Part shown: piece after piece, positions 2,027 through 28,418 of the stretch
How positions within the stretch are numbered: position 1 is the first letter of the stretch
Layout: every line of letters starts with the position of its first letter
Assembly: GCF_024699965.1 (NCBI RefSeq)
Contig: NZ_JAJOMZ010000004.1
Location: forward strand, 2,602,001 to 2,666,000
Origin: Flavobacterium sp. J372
Lineage (GTDB): Bacteria > Bacteroidota > Bacteroidia > Flavobacteriales > Flavobacteriaceae
DNA: 64,000 nt
Reading direction: 5' to 3'
Made by a program: the position numbers and the translations under genes
The notes under the pieces: generated by a model
The model's database searches: none
Seen by the model: only the letters and a program-made list of their open reading frames with translations
Told to the model about the DNA's origin: nothing

Positions 2027-2862
2027 CCCAGCCTAACTGCAGCATTCAATCTCTGCAATAGTTTTATCGAGAAAGTATTACTATATTCTTTTTTGCGGTA
2101 TTTTGTTACCGGCTGTATACCCTGTATCACATTAGTAATAAAGATTTCATCAGCTTTCTGAAGGTCAAATGGTGATATAGAGCTTTCAACAACTTCAACC
2201 TCATCAATCTTTTTCGCTAAAGCGATTATCTGCTTTCTCATTACACCATTCAGGCATCCGTCACTTACAGGAGGAGTAATCAGTTTACTGCCCATCAGCA
2301 TAAAAACATTACCCTGCAGGGCTTCTACAACATTTTTCTCATCATTTACCAACAGGCAGTTTTGCAGCCCGTTTTCATGGGCATATATGCTGCCTGTAAT
2401 GTGAACCATTTTATTTGTGGTCTTCAGCGTTGAAATAAGCTGTTTTGAGACATAAAAATCTTTGTAAAGGTCAACTTCATAATCTGCATCAGTAAATGAA
2501 TATAAAGCGCTATTCAGCGCCTCTGCGGTGATAATAAATTCAGTATTATTATCCGTTGGCAGATACTTACCTCCCGGCTTTCTGAAAATCGATAATCTTA
2601 TCCTGTACGAAGAGGTGCTTTCGAATGATGAGAGCAACAGCTTTACCTGCTCTTCCATATACTCCATAGTGAAATGCATAGGTATTTCCATACGTACAAT
2701 GCGCATGGAAGCCATAAGCCTGAAATAATGGTCTTCAAGAAACAGCACCTTGCCATCAACCACTTTCATGGTTTCAAAAATGCTGTCACCGTAAAGAAAT
2801 GCGCGGTTTGTGTGTAATGGTATGGCAGCTTCAGCCATTAATGTGCCGTTGTAATTTATCAT
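2023..2862 (-). CDS. Class IV PLP-dependent aminotransferase (BCAT / aminodeoxychorismate lyase-like)
   Basis: A 279-residue fold-type IV PLP enzyme, the group that includes branched-chain aminotransferase, D-amino acid aminotransferase and aminodeoxychorismate lyase. The N-terminus has the substrate loop NRAFLYGDSIFETMKV. The PLP-binding lysine is most likely in STLKTTNKM. The phosphate-binding/Glu region is KNVVEALQGNVFML, and the C-terminus has the late motif EIFITNVIQGIQPV. The exact substrate cannot be read from sequence; no neighbouring pab or ilv genes are present to decide. Convergent with YqgE. Confidence 0.88.
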   Translation of the reverse strand: MINYNGTLMAEAAIPLHTNRAFLYGDSIFETMKVVDGKVLFLEDHYFRLMASMRIVRMEIPMHFTMEYMEEQVKLLLSSFESTSSYRIRLSIFRKPGGKYLPTDNNTEFIITAEALNSALYSFTDADYEVDLYKDFYVSKQLISTLKTTNKMVHITGSIYAHENGLQNCLLVNDEKNVVEALQGNVFMLMGSKLITPPVSDGCLNGVMRKQIIALAKKIDEVEVVESSISPFDLQKADEIFITNVIQGIQPVTKYRKKEYSNTFSIKLLQRLNAAVRLG

Positions 2863-2914
2863 AAAAAATGCCCTGAAATATCAGGGCAAATATAGCGTAA
2901 AGCTGTAGCTTTTC

Positions 2915-3307
2915 CTAAACTGAGCCAAGCACATGTTTCAGGTCGCTCACCTGGTTTTCCCAAAGCTGCTTAGATTCCTGTATATCATTTTCTTCAGCGA
3001 AGTCAACTACCATTAGTGATACATCTTTTGTTATCTCATCAACTAAAATACGCAGTTCAAAATAATAATCGCTATCCTTATCATTTTCGTCAACCCACCT
3101 GAATTTTACCTTCTCACCTGTTTTTTTTGACGACATACGGGCCTTCTCTTCACTGTCATCCCATATAAATGTGAAGTATTCACCCCTGCTGTTTACATTA
3201 TCGGCAAACCATTCAGATAGTCCTGAAGGCGTGGAAATATACTGGTAAAGAAGTTGTGGTGAAGAAGTTATGGGAAACTCAAGCTCGTATTTTATTTTTT
3301 CGTCCAT
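2915..3307 (-). CDS. START-like / SRPBCC domain protein (AHSA1-like)
   Basis: About 130 residues with the helix-grip fold pattern of the SRPBCC superfamily: YELEFPITSSPQLLYQYIS, the LSEWFADNV element, the central FIWDDSEEKA, and a long C-terminal helix. Proteins of this group bind hydrophobic ligands or act as co-chaperones; the ligand here is unknown. The reading frame extends 13 codons further upstream, but I chose the Met at 3307 (MDEKIKYELEF) because the upstream residues do not match the fold. Sits between the aminotransferase and tRNA-Met. Confidence 0.85.
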   Translation of the reverse strand: MDEKIKYELEFPITSSPQLLYQYISTPSGLSEWFADNVNSRGEYFTFIWDDSEEKARMSSKKTGEKVKFRWVDENDKDSDYYFELRILVDEITKDVSLMVVDFAEENDIQESKQLWENQVSDLKHVLGSV

Positions 3308-3457
3308 TTCAGTATTAAATTTCGGGAAATATAGAATATTTAACATTCATAAAAAAGCATTTTTACAAATTATTTTTTTCAGCAAAATATATTTGCATCG
3401 TTTAAATTTAGTGCTATATTTGCACCCGCATTCAAGGATGTACAAACCGAATAAAAT

Positions 3458-3531
3458 GGCGAGGTAGCTCAGTCGGTTAGAGCGCAGGATTCATAACCCT
3501 GAGGTCACGGGTTCAACTCCCGTCTTCGCTA
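3458..3531 (+). tRNA. tRNA-Met (CAT anticodon)
   Basis: A 74-base cloverleaf. Acceptor 5' GGCGAGG pairs with CTTCGCT using two G:U pairs, discriminator A at 3531. D arm GCTC/GAGC, anticodon loop TTCATAA with CAT at 3492-3494, T arm ACGGG/CCCGT. The CCA end is not encoded. CAT can also belong to initiator or lysidine-modified Ile tRNA. The weak first acceptor pair is G:U rather than a mismatch, so elongator Met is preferred but not proven. Confidence 0.9.
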
Positions 3532-23826: not shown

Positions 23827-26070
23827 TTACAACACCAATAAACCGTAATCGCGTAATGTGTTTATTGGCTTACTATACCAGAATGGCTCAAAATCTTCAC
23901 CGGTAGCATCTTCGAAGCTTTGCTTAGCTGTGGCGAAAGTCATAACTGTGGCTGATGCTTCCTGTAAAAATTGCACAAGCCATTCACCTTCCGGCTGGCT
24001 TACCTGAATCGAGAAGCTTTCTTTTTTGTCGTGGAAGGTGAGCACTGTATTTTCAAAGGTGCGCCCTTTTTTAGTTTTGGTGATGTGTGAAATTGACGGC
24101 TTCCCTCCCAGCCATACTATTTTTGCTGTAGGTTTTATGCTGAAGTTATTCTCATCCTGAAGGACATTGTAGATATAGTCTTCAGGAATTTTAGTGCGTG
24201 GCACTTTAAAATCAAACCACTCCTGTAAAGGATAGTCAAAACACAGCCCGTGCATAAAATTGAATAGTGACTTTTTCAGTCCGTAGCTAAACTTATCGTG
24301 ATTTGCTCCGATGCTGTCAATATGCACGATATCGTTATTGGCAAAACTGCCTATGATATCACTTTCTTTAACAACGCTGAACTTTTCCGGCTCTAAACCA
24401 ACAGGGCTGTGTGCCGTCATGGCAAACTGGTGCCAGAAACCGCTCTGCAATATACCGGCCTCAAACATCTGGCGAACCATCTCGAGTGAGTCAATAGTTT
24501 CCTGCGCGGTTTGTGTCGGAAACCCATACATCAGGTAGGCATGTACCATGATACCCGCTTCGGTAAAGTTGCGGGTCACACGGGCCACCTGTGCCACAGT
24601 AACGCCTTTTTGAATCAGGTCAAGCAAACGGTCACTTGCCACTTCAAGCCCTCCGCTCACAGCGATGCAGCCTGAAGCCTTCAGCAGTTTACATAAGTCG
24701 GCCGTAAAGCTTTTTTCAAAGCGGATGTTTGTCCACCAGGTTACGGCAATCTTCCGTCGGATAATTTCCAACGCCAATTCCCGCATCAATGCAGGCGGTG
24801 CGGCTTCATCCACAAAATGAAAACCATTCTGGCCTGTTTGCGCTATGAGCTCTTCCATTCTGTCGACCAGCAATTTTGCGGCAACGGGTTCGTACACCTT
24901 TATATAATCAAGCGAAATGTCGCAAAACGTGCATTTACCCCAATAGCAGCCGTGTGCCATTGTAAGCTTGTTCCAGCGGCCATCGCTCCACATGCGGTGC
25001 ATCGGGTTTACAACTTCAATTACTGAAATATAGGTATCAAGGGGCAGGTCACTATAGTCAGGCGTGCCTACCTCTGCCTGCTTATAATCCCTGCAACCGG
25101 AATTATCAATATATGCTACTTTCTCATCAATGAGTGTGAAAGTCCGCTTCAGTTGTGAAATGTCACGCTTGCCGTCAAGGTGCTCAATCAGACATTCAAT
25201 CGGGGCCTCACCATCGTCAAGCGTGATAAAATCAAAGAATTCCATTACCCGTGCATCGGTAAGCGAGCGCAGTTCCGTATTCGGAAAACCGCCGCCCATT
25301 GCGATTTTTATATTCGGGAAATGCTGTTTGATAAACTGCGCGCTTCGGAAAGCTGCATACAGATTCCCGGGGAATGGAACCGAAAAACAAACCAGTTGTG
25401 GTTCGACATCGAGCAGTCGCTCGTGCAATATCCCGACAAGCAGTCTGTCAATATAAGTGAACTGCTGTTGCAGGCTGTCATACAATTCATCAAACGAGTT
25501 AGCCGAACGCCCCAACCTCTCAGCATATCGTGAGAAGCCAAAATGCGGGTCGACACACTCTACAATCAGGTCGCTAATATCCTCAAGGTACAGCGTAGCC
25601 AAATGCTTGGCCTTATCCTGGTTACCCATGGTACCGAAAGCCCAATCGAGTTCTTCCAACTGTGCAAACCGAGATGCCTCGGGCAGAAAATCTTCACTGC
25701 AAATGAGGTGCGCCAGCGTAGGGTTCTTCCCTTGCAGGAACAGCATTACCTGATCAATGGTTTTGAGGTACTCTTCGCGGAGGGCTATGATGCGTTGGGC
25801 ATTTTCTGAGAGTTGGGCAGCCTCTCCCCCGGCCCCTCTCCCAAGGAGAGGGGAGCCTGACTCAACTTCATTAAAAAGATCCGTCAGTCCTTTCTTTGAA
25901 AACAGCTTTGCTATCACCTCAATACCAAGATCGGCCTGGTAAGACGGTATGCTCTTGGTGTTGAGGAAGCCCTTCAGGTAGGCCGTGGCCGGGTATGGCG
26001 TATTGAGTTGTGTGAAGGGCGGCGTTATTAAGAAAGCTTTGGTTTTCAAACGGCAATGATTGTGGTGCAA
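23827..26070 (-). CDS. B12-binding-like radical SAM protein carrying an in-frame repeat insert
   Basis: 747 residues. N-terminal Rossmann/B12-binding-like part (LLDVEPQLVCFSVPFPGN, KIAMGGGFPNTEL), then the radical SAM core with HGCYWGKCTFCDISL (CxxxCxxC), the GGLEVASDR site and FGFP-like MYGFPTQTAQETIDSLEMV. The C-terminal 150 residues are family specific. Function is not known. Residues about 71-85 (SGSPLLGRGAGGEAA) are the translation of an interspersed palindromic repeat and are unlikely to be ancestral. Transcribed convergently with rimO. Confidence 0.88.
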   Translation of the reverse strand: MHHNHCRLKTKAFLITPPFTQLNTPYPATAYLKGFLNTKSIPSYQADLGIEVIAKLFSKKGLTDLFNEVESGSPLLGRGAGGEAAQLSENAQRIIALREEYLKTIDQVMLFLQGKNPTLAHLICSEDFLPEASRFAQLEELDWAFGTMGNQDKAKHLATLYLEDISDLIVECVDPHFGFSRYAERLGRSANSFDELYDSLQQQFTYIDRLLVGILHERLLDVEPQLVCFSVPFPGNLYAAFRSAQFIKQHFPNIKIAMGGGFPNTELRSLTDARVMEFFDFITLDDGEAPIECLIEHLDGKRDISQLKRTFTLIDEKVAYIDNSGCRDYKQAEVGTPDYSDLPLDTYISVIEVVNPMHRMWSDGRWNKLTMAHGCYWGKCTFCDISLDYIKVYEPVAAKLLVDRMEELIAQTGQNGFHFVDEAAPPALMRELALEIIRRKIAVTWWTNIRFEKSFTADLCKLLKASGCIAVSGGLEVASDRLLDLIQKGVTVAQVARVTRNFTEAGIMVHAYLMYGFPTQTAQETIDSLEMVRQMFEAGILQSGFWHQFAMTAHSPVGLEPEKFSVVKESDIIGSFANNDIVHIDSIGANHDKFSYGLKKSLFNFMHGLCFDYPLQEWFDFKVPRTKIPEDYIYNVLQDENNFSIKPTAKIVWLGGKPSISHITKTKKGRTFENTVLTFHDKKESFSIQVSQPEGEWLVQFLQEASATVMTFATAKQSFEDATGEDFEPFWYSKPINTLRDYGLLVL
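25816..25860. repeat. Palindromic repeat inserted in frame in the radical SAM gene
   Basis: Contains arms CCCCTCTCC (25833-25841) and GGAGAGGGG (25845-25853) preceded by CTCCCCCGG. The insert adds 15 codons without a stop and keeps the frame, joining LFNEVE to QLSENAQRI. Confidence 0.8.
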
Positions 26071-26133
26071 ATTTAGGGGATAATTTCGAATTTATGCTTA
26101 ACGAATCTAGGGTGTGCAGTATTGTAATTTTCG

Positions 26134-26171
26134 CTAATTTTGTACAAAACAAACTACAATGCCATCAGACT
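26134..26171 (+). repeat. Direct repeat, left copy (bshC start region)
   Basis: 38 bases identical to 26805-26842. Includes a -7-like TAATTTTG and an ATG that reads MPSD then stop, a truncated copy of the bshC beginning. Confidence 0.92.
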
Positions 26172-26185
26172 AAAGCACATTAAAA

Positions 26186-26626
26186 TTGAACTTACCAAAA
26201 TATCAGCTTAAAGCAGAAAATTCATTAATTTTATTTGAGTTTACGAGTGAAGGAAACAAAGGTAGTATCCCTAAGATTATAAAGTTTAGCGAGACACATT
26301 TAAAAGATTTCTATAATCTGGGCTTTGGGGATAAAGATATTGAGACAGGTGACGTTGATGATTTGGCGATTTCAAATAATGGAGACAGCGAGAAAGTTTT
26401 AGCAACAGTTGTTTCGGCAGTTTATGCTTTTACAGACAGATATCGTGATGCATGGATATATGCGACAGGAAGTACAGCGTCAAGAACAAGGCTATATCGC
26501 ATCGGAATTTCAAAGCATTACGATGAAGCTGCAAAACATTTTGAAATTTATGGATTATTGAATGATGAATGGGTTAAGTTTGAAAAAGGAATAGAATTTG
26601 ATGCTTTTCTAATTAAAAGAAAATAA
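26186..26626 (+). CDS. DUF6934-like protein, first gene of inserted cassette
   Basis: 146 residues. Translation is taken from TTG 26186 (MNLPKYQLKAENSLILFEF), since there is an in-frame stop 15 bases upstream and no earlier ATG. Recognisable blocks: NGDSEKVLATVVSAVYAFTD, WIYATGSTASRTRLYRIGIS, and a C-terminal DEWVKFEKGIEFDAFLIKR. These match what I recall of DUF6934, a Bacteroidota family without known function, often in two-gene units. Followed after 2 bases by a 53-residue gene. Together they lie between 38-base direct repeats. Confidence 0.8.
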   Translation: MNLPKYQLKAENSLILFEFTSEGNKGSIPKIIKFSETHLKDFYNLGFGDKDIETGDVDDLAISNNGDSEKVLATVVSAVYAFTDRYRDAWIYATGSTASRTRLYRIGISKHYDEAAKHFEIYGLLNDEWVKFEKGIEFDAFLIKRK

Positions 26627-26628
26627 CC

Positions 26629-26790
26629 ATGAAAACAATTGACGACCTAAATAACAGAAAGACACCTATTGTTACTATCGACAATGGCTTAGAAGTTCTG
26701 AAAGACAAACCACTCTTTCAGAATAAGGTTGACAAAGCGAATGAAACTCTTAAGAAAGCCGGTTTACCAAAATTAAAAAAAGCAATATAA
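26629..26790 (+). CDS. Small protein, second gene of inserted cassette
   Basis: 53 residues, start MKTIDDLNNRKTPIVTIDNG and end NETLKKAGLPKLKKAI. Basic C-terminus. Begins 2 bases after the stop of the DUF6934-like gene, so translation is probably coupled. No domain recognised. The pair has the size and layout of a toxin-antitoxin module, but nothing in the sequence proves that. Confidence 0.7.
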   Translation: MKTIDDLNNRKTPIVTIDNGLEVLKDKPLFQNKVDKANETLKKAGLPKLKKAI

Positions 26791-26804
26791 TACAAGGCTT
26801 TTCC

Positions 26805-26842
26805 CTAATTTTGTACAAAACAAACTACAATGCCATCAGACT
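26805..26842 (+). repeat. Direct repeat, right copy (intact bshC start)
   Basis: 38-base copy of 26134-26171; here the ATG at 26830 opens the complete bshC. The match extends a further 5 bases upstream after one mismatch. Confidence 0.92.
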
Positions 26843-28418
26843 GTATCACGTACCAGAGTTCAGGATATTTTACCCCGCTAATTGTTGACTACCTGAACCA
26901 AAAAGATACGCTGAAGCCGCTGTACAACCGCATTCCTACCCTTGAGAATTTCAAGGCACAGCTTGAGGAAAAGCAGAAGAACTACGACCATACTTTCCGC
27001 AGCAAGCTGGCCGATGAACTGGAACTGCAATACAAAAGCCTGGATACATCTGCAAAAACAAAGCAAAACATTGCAGCGCTTTGGGAAGATAATACCTACA
27101 CAATAACCACCGGCCACCAATTAAACCTTTTTACTGGTCCGCTATATTTTCTTTATAAGATTGTCTCAACCATAAACCTGACGAAACAACTGAAGGTTGC
27201 CTACCCTGCCTACAATTTTGTACCTGTATATTGGATGGCGACCGAGGACCATGACTTCGAAGAAATTAATTACTTCAACTTCAGGGATAAAAAGATAAAA
27301 TGGACGCGCGAAAGTGCAGGCCCGGTTGGGCGATTATCAACTAGCGGACTCAATGCGGTACTTGAAGTCTTAAAAAAGAGCTCGGCGCAGGCGATAATGC
27401 CGCCTGGCTGGTACAGCTGTTTACAGACGCTTATCTGAAGCACGATAACCTCGCTGATGCAACGCGCTATATCGCGAATCACCTTTTTGCTGAGGAAGGG
27501 CTTGTGATCGTTGATGCTGATACTCCAGCGCTGAAGAAGCTGTTCATTCCACACATAAAGGAAGAGCTGTTACACCAGACATCGCACCACAAAGTTGCAG
27601 AAACGGCAGAGCACCTTAAAGGTTACAACATACAGGTCAACCCGCGTGACATCAACCTGTTTTATATAGAAGATAACCTTCGAGAACGTATTATATTACA
27701 GGATGGCAGGTATTATGTAAACAATACGGAGATGTCATTCAGCGAAAGTGAAATACTGGAATTGGTGGAATCAAATCCCGAGCGCTTCAGCCCGAATGTA
27801 ATTATGCGCCCGCTGTACCAGGAAGTGATATTGCCCAACTTATGCTATATTGGCGGCGGTGGCGAGATTGCCTACTGGCTGGAACTAAAAAGCTACTTTG
27901 ATTCGGCACGCATAACATTCCCTATGTTGCTGATACGTAACTCCGTACTGTTGGCAACCGAAAAGCAGGCATCCAAAGCTGATAAGCTTAACCTTACATG
28001 GACCGACATGTTCTCAAAACAACATGAGCTAATCAATAAAAAAATTGCGGTTTATTCTGAATTAAATCTTGATTTTTCAGAGCAAAAACAACACTTAACT
28101 GAGCAATTCGACAAACTGGAAAAGATTGCTGAACAGACAGATAAATCTTTTAAAGGCGCTGTACAGGCACAAAAAGAAAAGCAGTTGAAAGGACTTGAGA
28201 ATCTGGAAAAACGTCTGCTTAAAGCTGAAAAACGCCGCCATGCTGACGAACTGGAGCGAATAACTACACTACAGAACGAACTCTTCCCAAACCAAAGCCT
28301 GCAGGAGCGCAAAGCTAATTTCTCTGAATTCTATTTAGATTATGATGGTAAGCTTTTACACGAATTGTTTGCTAAGTTAAAACCTCTTGAGCAGGAATTT
28401 AGCGTGATTGTGCTTTAG
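26830..28418 (+). pseudogene. bshC: Bacillithiol biosynthesis protein BshC, one-base frame break
   Basis: Adds cysteine to GlcN-malate in the last step of bacillithiol synthesis. Frame one starts MPSDCITYQSSGYFTPLIVD and contains TITTGHQLNLFTGPLYFLYK and VYWMATEDHDFEEIN. Adding one A to the A6 at 27372-27377 gives LKKELGAGDNAAWLVQLF and continues to the end (ICYIGGGGEIAYW-type block at NLCYIGGGGEIAYWLELK, then a coiled coil). The total of 529 residues matches the family. An inserted cassette sits directly upstream and duplicated its first bases. Confidence 0.94.

Follow-up and report, generated by a model that had tools for sequence, protein, structure and literature searches.

The window analysed here, a stretch of 64,000 nucleotides from the genome of Flavobacterium sp. 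J372 (3.53 Mb in 7 contigs), carries an exact 38-bp direct repeat, the left copy of which lies at 26134-26171 and the right copy at 26805-26842 of the forward strand, with a start-to-start spacing of 671 bp. Extended leftwards, the two copies are identical at 43 of 44 positions (26128-26171 and 26799-26842). The right copy comprises the promoter and start of bshC, the ATG at 26830 being the start codon of this gene, and the left copy is a partial duplicate of this target, with the bshC promoter and first codons. The -7 consensus of Bacteroidota promoters is TAnnTTTG; TAATTTTG, found at 26135-26142 in the left copy and present also in the right copy, is an element which we take to fit it. From its ATG the left copy runs into the insert as a stub reading frame (26159-26173, forward strand), ATG CCA TCA GAC TAA, which gives MPSD and a stop. 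When the whole genome was searched for the 38-mer, with up to three mismatches allowed, exactly these two places were returned, and the reversed control pattern returned none. Chance is ruled out as the origin of the repeat by the recurrence of 38 exact bases at two places in 3.5 Mb, and a multi-copy element by the restriction of the 38-mer to these two places. An earlier, sequence-only reading of this DNA had described the exact repeat, the -7 element and the ATG within it, the true bshC beginning in the right copy and the four-codon stub in the left, all of which are borne out, the bshC assignment also by its PF10079 match; its own proviso, that the repeat might turn out to be a multi-copy element, did not hold.

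Between the two copies lie two co-directional genes. The first (26186-26626, forward strand) starts with TTG 14 nt behind the repeat and encodes a DUF6934 protein of 146 amino acids, which matches PF22028 (E=1.7e-56) with 190.7 bits against a cut-off of 27, over positions 1-145 of the 145 in the profile. The second (26629-26790, forward strand) begins 2 nt after the DUF6934 stop codon and encodes a basic partner of 53 amino acids (pI 9.8). The remaining open reading frames of at least 30 amino acids inside the insert are just short frames overlapping these two genes, and the insert thus contains no transposase or integrase; the gene content and the lack of a mobilising enzyme noted in the sequence-only reading are both confirmed by the PF22028 match and the list of open reading frames. 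The target gene, bshC (26830-28418, forward strand), matches PF10079 (E=2.8e-59) and PF24850 on its two halves. In this assembly it is frame-shifted in an A-run near 27370-27385, a point absent from the sequence-only reading, which may reflect either an assembly error or a real loss; the bshC of Flavobacterium sp. Sd200 is intact (529 amino acids). On the left, a radical-SAM gene on the reverse strand (23827-26070; PF04055, E=1.9e-12) marks the interval in which the empty site is to be sought in relatives.

Comparison of DUF6934 between the window and Sd200 gave a dN of 0.096 and a dS of about 1.7, and the gene is therefore kept as a protein under purifying selection. The AlphaFold2 model of DUF6934 is a confident single domain (pLDDT 92.4, pTM 0.87), predicted to consist of three strands, a long helix and then further strands and helices. 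PF22028 was its sole match in Pfam, NCBIfam, PADLOC, PHROGs and PDB profiles, apart from a PHROG of unknown function (E 0.017). The partner had no significant family match in Pfam, NCBIfam, PADLOC, PHROGs and PDB sequence profiles, its best being a weak DUF4197 match shown by 7 of 20 members (best E 0.0055). By sequence, neither protein showed homology to a known toxin or antitoxin in the same five collections, and profile searches found no restriction or methylase domain in either and no DNA-binding family match in the partner. An alignment of partner relatives reveals a conserved core of approximately K-x-P-I-V-x-I-D-x-S-L...L-F-P-x-K-L-x-K-A-N-E-x-L...G-L-P-K. The partners are basic (median pI 9.9) and the DUF6934 proteins mildly acidic (median pI 5.5). 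A full-text search of a literature library found no paper on DUF6934, and nothing there combined a novel toxin-antitoxin system with Flavobacterium and Bacteroidetes.

Within the genus, 58 of 398 genomes have DUF6934. Scanning of genome contigs yielded 451 candidates; the 80 with the highest scores were retained, so that this is a best-scoring sample, and by their record labels they are mostly Bacteroidota, with a few from other phyla or unnamed bacteria. A total of 116 loci were read, from which one below the cut-off (L009), 11 without a partner call and two duplicates (L001 and L010, of L002 and L036) were dropped, leaving 102 modules, 89 of them core and 13 distant relatives (less than 47% identity). 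A small-ORF profile detected a relative of the partner behind DUF6934 in 104 of 115 loci, a number that includes the two duplicates, and in 89 of the 92 core loci without duplicates. The profile was iterated on the same small ORFs on which it was scored, so the weakest partner calls (E 1e-3 to 6e-3, in distant loci) are unsure. The gap from the DUF6934 stop codon to the partner has a median of 15 nt in the 89 modules, with 2-39 nt as the 5th to 95th percentile. Plasmids of Riemerella anatipestifer and Myroides albus carry the same pair with resistance genes around it (L194, L195 and L196, in NZ_CP072192, NZ_CP081933 and NZ_CP102755); the DUF6934 match of L195 is split in two pieces, and the partner is annotated as DUF4197 in two of these three loci. 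A phage origin was considered and set aside: no phage record turned up, and among 21 pattern matches a relative was encoded by one IMG/VR contig.

Repeats flanking the related modules were sought by local alignment (match 2, mismatch -3) of the 400 bp before DUF6934 with the 400 bp behind the partner. A direct repeat scoring at least 40 was present in 33 of the 102 modules; of 1940 randomly placed intervals with identical geometry, drawn from 97 of the loci, 49 reached this score. All 33 are core loci (33/89), and none of the 13 distant DUF6934 loci had a flanking repeat. The repeats are 34-299 bp long (median 74 bp) with identities of 77-99%. Only two copies occur in the fetched locus in 22 of the 33; the other 11 have further repeat matches in the locus, for which reason the strict count is 22. 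This two-copy filter covers the fetched 2.4-8.4 kb per locus and, for the window alone, the whole genome. Under the same filter and score, 22 of the 89 core modules passed, as compared to 54 of 3480 control placements spread over 87 of the loci. The 54 fall in 9 of these 87 loci; Fisher's test gives p=9e-19, which is approximate since placements in one locus depend on each other. Among the 11 loci with further matches, six are clear arrays or dispersed repeats with three or more copies in the locus (L073, L107, L046, L080, L048 and L050), the repeat of L073 having 14 matches in its genome, and five show small partial extra matches (L063, L066, L057, L068 and L103). The 34-bp repeat of L062 looks like a terminator (it is palindromic) and may be of chance origin. 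At the threshold used, 56 of the 89 core modules have no flanking repeat, and many insertions have therefore lost the repeat or arose otherwise.

As a second control, 30 loci of HigBA, a two-gene toxin-antitoxin module of similar size, were taken from the same genus and tested with a wider right-hand search range (900 bp from the gene end). Unlike the DUF6934 modules, 34 of 87 of which had repeats scoring at least 50 in this wider test, HigBA had such repeats in only 2 of the 30 loci (L197 and L199), both multi-copy in the locus, so that the two-copy cases at this score numbered 0/30. Comparison of 22/89 with 0/30 gave a Fisher p of 0.001 with mixed thresholds, the two-copy modules at a score of at least 50 being 21/89. 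One HigBA locus (L209) scored exactly 40, its copy number in the locus being unchecked, and another (L207) lies at a contig edge with unadjusted coordinates. At L197 and L199 a repeat some 140-200 bp long is present several times, in full or in part, and these loci resemble integron-type arrays.

The repeats are pieces of local host sequence and differ from site to site. In 14 loci the repeat was read as clearly overlapping a neighbouring gene, at its 5' end in five and at its 3' end in nine. The 5' ends are those of bshC (the window and Sd200), an S15 peptidase gene (L096; repeat of 172 bp, 97%), a DUF2750 gene (L063) and an ORF of 156 amino acids (L090). The 3' ends belong to valS (L004; 268 bp, 89%), a ThiF-family gene (L071), recJ (L077; 114 bp, 82%), a gene for a PQQ-repeat protein (L086; 58 bp, 90%), a TMEM175-family gene (L094), yoeB (L068), genes at L066 and L101, and a gene beside a tyrosine recombinase (L083). 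Gene names were taken from Pfam for nine loci and for the radical-SAM neighbour, the named gene at L083 being the recombinase. Eleven of the 14 loci belong to the two-copy set of 22, and the other three (L063, L066 and L068) carry the small extra matches. The expectation from the sequence-only reading that the same cassette would recur with other direct repeats at other gene starts is thus upheld as regards other repeats and other genes; starts are no rule. Whenever a gene end is covered by the repeat, the gene survives beside the module in an intact or almost intact copy, a retention that selection would favour. Comparison of the flanks showed two pairs of loci at the same site (the window with Sd200, and two Chryseobacterium loci) and one pair with a common neighbour gene. 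At L068 (about 2240-3525) the module lies at the 3' end of the yoeB toxin gene (PF06769), itself behind a gene that by eye is yefM-like, and what is seen there is apparently one toxin-antitoxin-like unit inserted at the end of another.

Relatives without the module and without the duplication were found at all five sites examined, all of them being other species; at four sites a single repeat copy was aligned, and at bshC the evidence is the measured length of the short interval, which lacks the duplication. In the bshC survey, 377 of 398 genomes were matched and 30 loci fetched, 11 of which, the two carriers included, have the radical-SAM gene upstream of bshC within the fetched stretch. From the start of the radical-SAM gene to that of bshC there are 775 bp in the window and 112, 160 and 206 bp in the non-carriers L121, L131 and L133; subtraction of the repeat spacing (671 bp) from 775 bp leaves 104 bp. 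The empty site that the sequence-only reading had proposed to look for in relatives therefore exists at bshC, in these three loci, and at the four other sites. The remaining six loci (L119, L120, L123, L125, L127 and L128) have varied ORFs in the radical-SAM/bshC interval and no repeat of the bshC start, the interval being a variable spot. Among 17 loci scanned, a second copy of promoter and start was present in the window and Sd200 only. At the valS site a single copy and no module were found in both congeners compared. For the site of Chryseobacterium piscicola, 146 of 148 genomes were matched and 28 of the 29 other loci fetched lack the module in the fetched stretch; Chryseobacterium Leaf394 has the module at this site with a left remnant of 45 bp, and the two closest module-free Chryseobacterium (93% and 91%) carry one repeat copy. 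The Capnocytophaga site was matched in 19 of 20 genomes, with the module in none of the five loci checked and one repeat copy in the nearest two (L230 and L231, the latter also with a partial paralogous match). The Pedobacter site was matched in 17 of 18 genomes, with the module in none of nine loci checked, and in L250 the left gene, one 44-bp copy and the right (recombinase) gene are contiguous. Together with the different repeats found elsewhere, these module-free relatives support the description of a modular cassette that duplicated its target and left bshC expressible.

When 15 pairs of modules were compared, DNA similarity was confined to the module and short flanks in nine. Thus, similarity between L003 and L063 begins at the DUF6934 start codon and ends short of the end of the partner, that between L057 and L003 runs from -74 to +18, that between L087 and L107 from -53 to +5 and that between L071 and L068 covers the genes only, the longest of the nine being L044/L051 (-77 to +160). 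Two of the remaining six are the same-site pairs, and four have more in common: the arrays L048/L050 and L043/L046, a neighbour gene in L090/L092 and about 600 bp upstream in L109/L115. Repeat and gene are 0-310 bp apart on the left and 5-304 bp apart on the right, and across the compared modules almost no bases outside the genes are conserved, so that fixed ends like those of a transposon are lacking. A strict TAnnTTTG lies at most 70 nt upstream in 40 of the 89 modules, as compared to 220 of 4450 random 70-mers, and the module therefore often travels with its own promoter. In the 32 repeat-flanked modules with scores of at least 50, the motif is inside the left repeat in five, one of which is the window, between the repeat and the gene in 14, and absent within 70 nt in 13. 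The repeat label (32 rows, score of at least 50), mapped on the tree of DUF6934, requires 21 changes, at least 13 of them forced by well-supported branches, and close DUF6934 relatives occur in different families. The scattered label and the spread of close relatives across families argue that insertion happened many times; the 22 two-copy loci, less the two same-site pairs, amount to recurrence at about 20 different sites.

The history of the bshC site itself can be approached through Sd200, which has a homologous module (86% amino acid identity) at the same bshC start, flanked by a 91-bp repeat of its own (95%). The 38-mers show no differences within each genome and 7 differences in 38 between the window and Sd200; the Chryseobacterium repeat copies are 96.5% identical within the genome and 93-96% identical to the Leaf394 copy. 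As copies are more alike within than between genomes, either the module entered twice at one place or gene conversion has acted. Synonymous divergence between the window and Sd200 is lower for DUF6934 (pS 0.67) than for bshC (0.85-0.91), which leans towards two entries or transfer, an argument that is weak because saturation is nearly reached at these sites. In Chryseobacterium the module (dS 0.98) and the target gene (0.86) are about equally diverged, yet two closer relatives lack the module. The left copy of Sd200 (L036, 3962-3991) reads MPSDCISNQ-stop, near the true MPSDCISYQ beyond the DNA-identical part, and may stem from another bshC allele or be a chance likeness.

Taken together, the data are best explained by a small mobile module that probably inserted with target duplication and may have been kept by addiction. 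As to the anatomy, insertion with a long and variable target duplication is very probable. DUF6934 and its partner, with short flanks, would be a mobile module inserted between the radical-SAM gene and bshC, and the insertion would have left a duplicate of 38-44 bp, with the bshC promoter and first codons, on either side. Through the duplicate, bshC would regain its promoter and start, and the left copy, judging from the position of the module start codon 14 nt behind it, would place the module under the copied bshC promoter. The joining may have come about when repair of a break, or template switching, captured the module without the help of any enzyme encoded by it and linked its ends to sister copies of the target at staggered positions; with such an offset, a duplication of any length could arise and no fixed ends would be needed. 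We propose this manner of joining only tentatively. Recombination between the repeats could delete the module and restore the site, and the module would persist if its loss costs something, as in addiction of the toxin-antitoxin type.

Several other explanations were weighed against insertion with target duplication. A Campbell-type homologous integration, in which a circle with the module and one bshC start popped out of another genome and recombined into the bshC start, would make the repeats a reflection of the transfer of an older insertion and no fresh target duplication. It would account for the homologous module of Sd200 at the same bshC start and for the one site that Leaf394 and C. 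piscicola have in common, and the pS of 0.67 for DUF6934 against 0.85-0.91 for bshC hints at an ancestor younger than the species split; however, the repeats are specific to the species, all 7 differences being found in both copies of a genome, the near-saturated synonymous sites weaken the divergence argument, and the first duplications at about 20 different sites stay unexplained, which makes this course of events unlikely. Rather more improbable is that the pair is a new addiction module and its own mobile element at once, one product joining the module into sites by nicking or holding DNA ends in a staggered manner; if true, two genes of about 0.6 kb have spread through Bacteroidota without transposase or fixed ends. 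Local duplication of the promoter and start to the benefit of the host, with recruitment of the pair for co-regulation with bshC, would suit the position of the window's TAnnTTTG nearest DUF6934 in the left repeat copy, and its Sd200 counterpart TAATTTTA, though missing the strict motif, is also in the repeat. Elsewhere, the module adjoins unrelated genes in either orientation and the strict motif is inside the left repeat in 5 of 32 modules only, so this origin is very unlikely.

Insertion of a classical or relic transposon with target-site duplication, the transposase acting in trans, would likewise leave an insert between direct repeats of target DNA and would suit a module that has moved between families, and an inverted pair does span the junctions (26127-26149 and 26809-26831, 78% complementary). 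This pair, however, is the repeat's own palindrome TTTTGTACAAAA, which is present in both copies and by eye absent from the Sd200 repeat; the duplications range from 34 to 299 bp, the repeat-gene distance varies and almost no bases outside the genes are conserved. A transposon with fixed ends was rejected for want of conserved ends, similarity being confined to the module and short flanks in 9 of the 15 pairs, and the transposon origin as a whole is highly improbable. For an integron-type gene cassette, with the repeats as attC recombination sites and the module as a cassette of an array, speak the three or more copies at L048, L050, L046, L080 and L107, the 14 genome matches at L073 and the multi-copy nature of the strong-repeat HigBA loci L197 and L199. 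Against it, the window repeat consists of the bshC promoter and start and has exactly two genomic copies, and in 11 of the 22 two-copy loci the repeat was read as the end of a neighbouring gene. A tyrosine-recombinase motif (a short one) occurs in the fetched stretch of just 2 of 32 repeat-flanked loci, as compared to 1 of 57 other loci, and a nearby recombinase was rejected as the mover. With two genome copies made of bshC sequence, an integron cassette was rejected for the window, where it is hardly credible; integron-like arrays are the likely setting of some relatives (L046, L048, L050, L080, L107 and L073).

As to function, the DUF6934 pair is probably toxin-antitoxin-like, and that it acts by addiction has in our estimate a little under an even chance. 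The two-gene layout, the patchy distribution, the plasmid copies in Riemerella and Myroides and the copies in repeat arrays, a setting seen also for HigBA, were counted in favour of addiction. Counted against it were the lack of similarity to known toxins and the charges of the two proteins; antitoxin and toxin usually show the reverse of the pattern of basic partner and acidic DUF6934, if DUF6934 is the toxin. Like the type II toxin-antitoxin systems, the pair forms a conserved operon of two small co-directional genes about 15 nt apart, with a patchy, horizontal distribution and copies on plasmids and in repeat arrays; unlike them, it matches no known toxin or antitoxin by sequence, and its partner gave no match to a DNA-binding family. 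The sequence-only reading had also offered a defence module; PADLOC gave no match, and a defence system was dropped.

Insertion with long, variable target duplication has been described for restriction-modification systems in passages of three accounts that credit Nobusato 2000 and Furuta 2010 (PMC3874152, PMC3031569, PMC1643837). Two Helicobacter pylori genomes provided the basis for inferring it more than 20 years ago, the passages concerned giving no mechanism (PMC3874152, PMC3031569, PMC1643837), and the duplications are put 'in the order of 100 bp' (PMC3874152). The DUF6934 modules resemble these insertions in their long, variable repeats of host DNA, the unoccupied sites in relatives, the lack of a linked mobile element and the small self-contained unit, and differ in having no restriction or methylase gene and in being a pair of DUF6934 and a 53-residue protein, found mostly in Bacteroidota, at about 20 sites. 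A study of Arabidopsis includes transposed genes that moved without a transposon and have direct repeats often matching the unoccupied site of a relative, repeats of more than 30 bp being reported there for 9 of 25 genes with a parental site (PMC2869330). Unlike the present module, these are plant genes of many families, and the part of that study dealing with them proposes excision as a circle and re-insertion (PMC2869330).

The phenomenon at bshC is thus a known one; its carrier is new and very small, a gene pair of about 0.6 kb that is spread over a phylum. The module-free relatives and the approximately 20 sites offer a clean comparative system for the insertion of genes without a transposase, and DUF6934 and its partner are candidates for a new toxin-antitoxin family.
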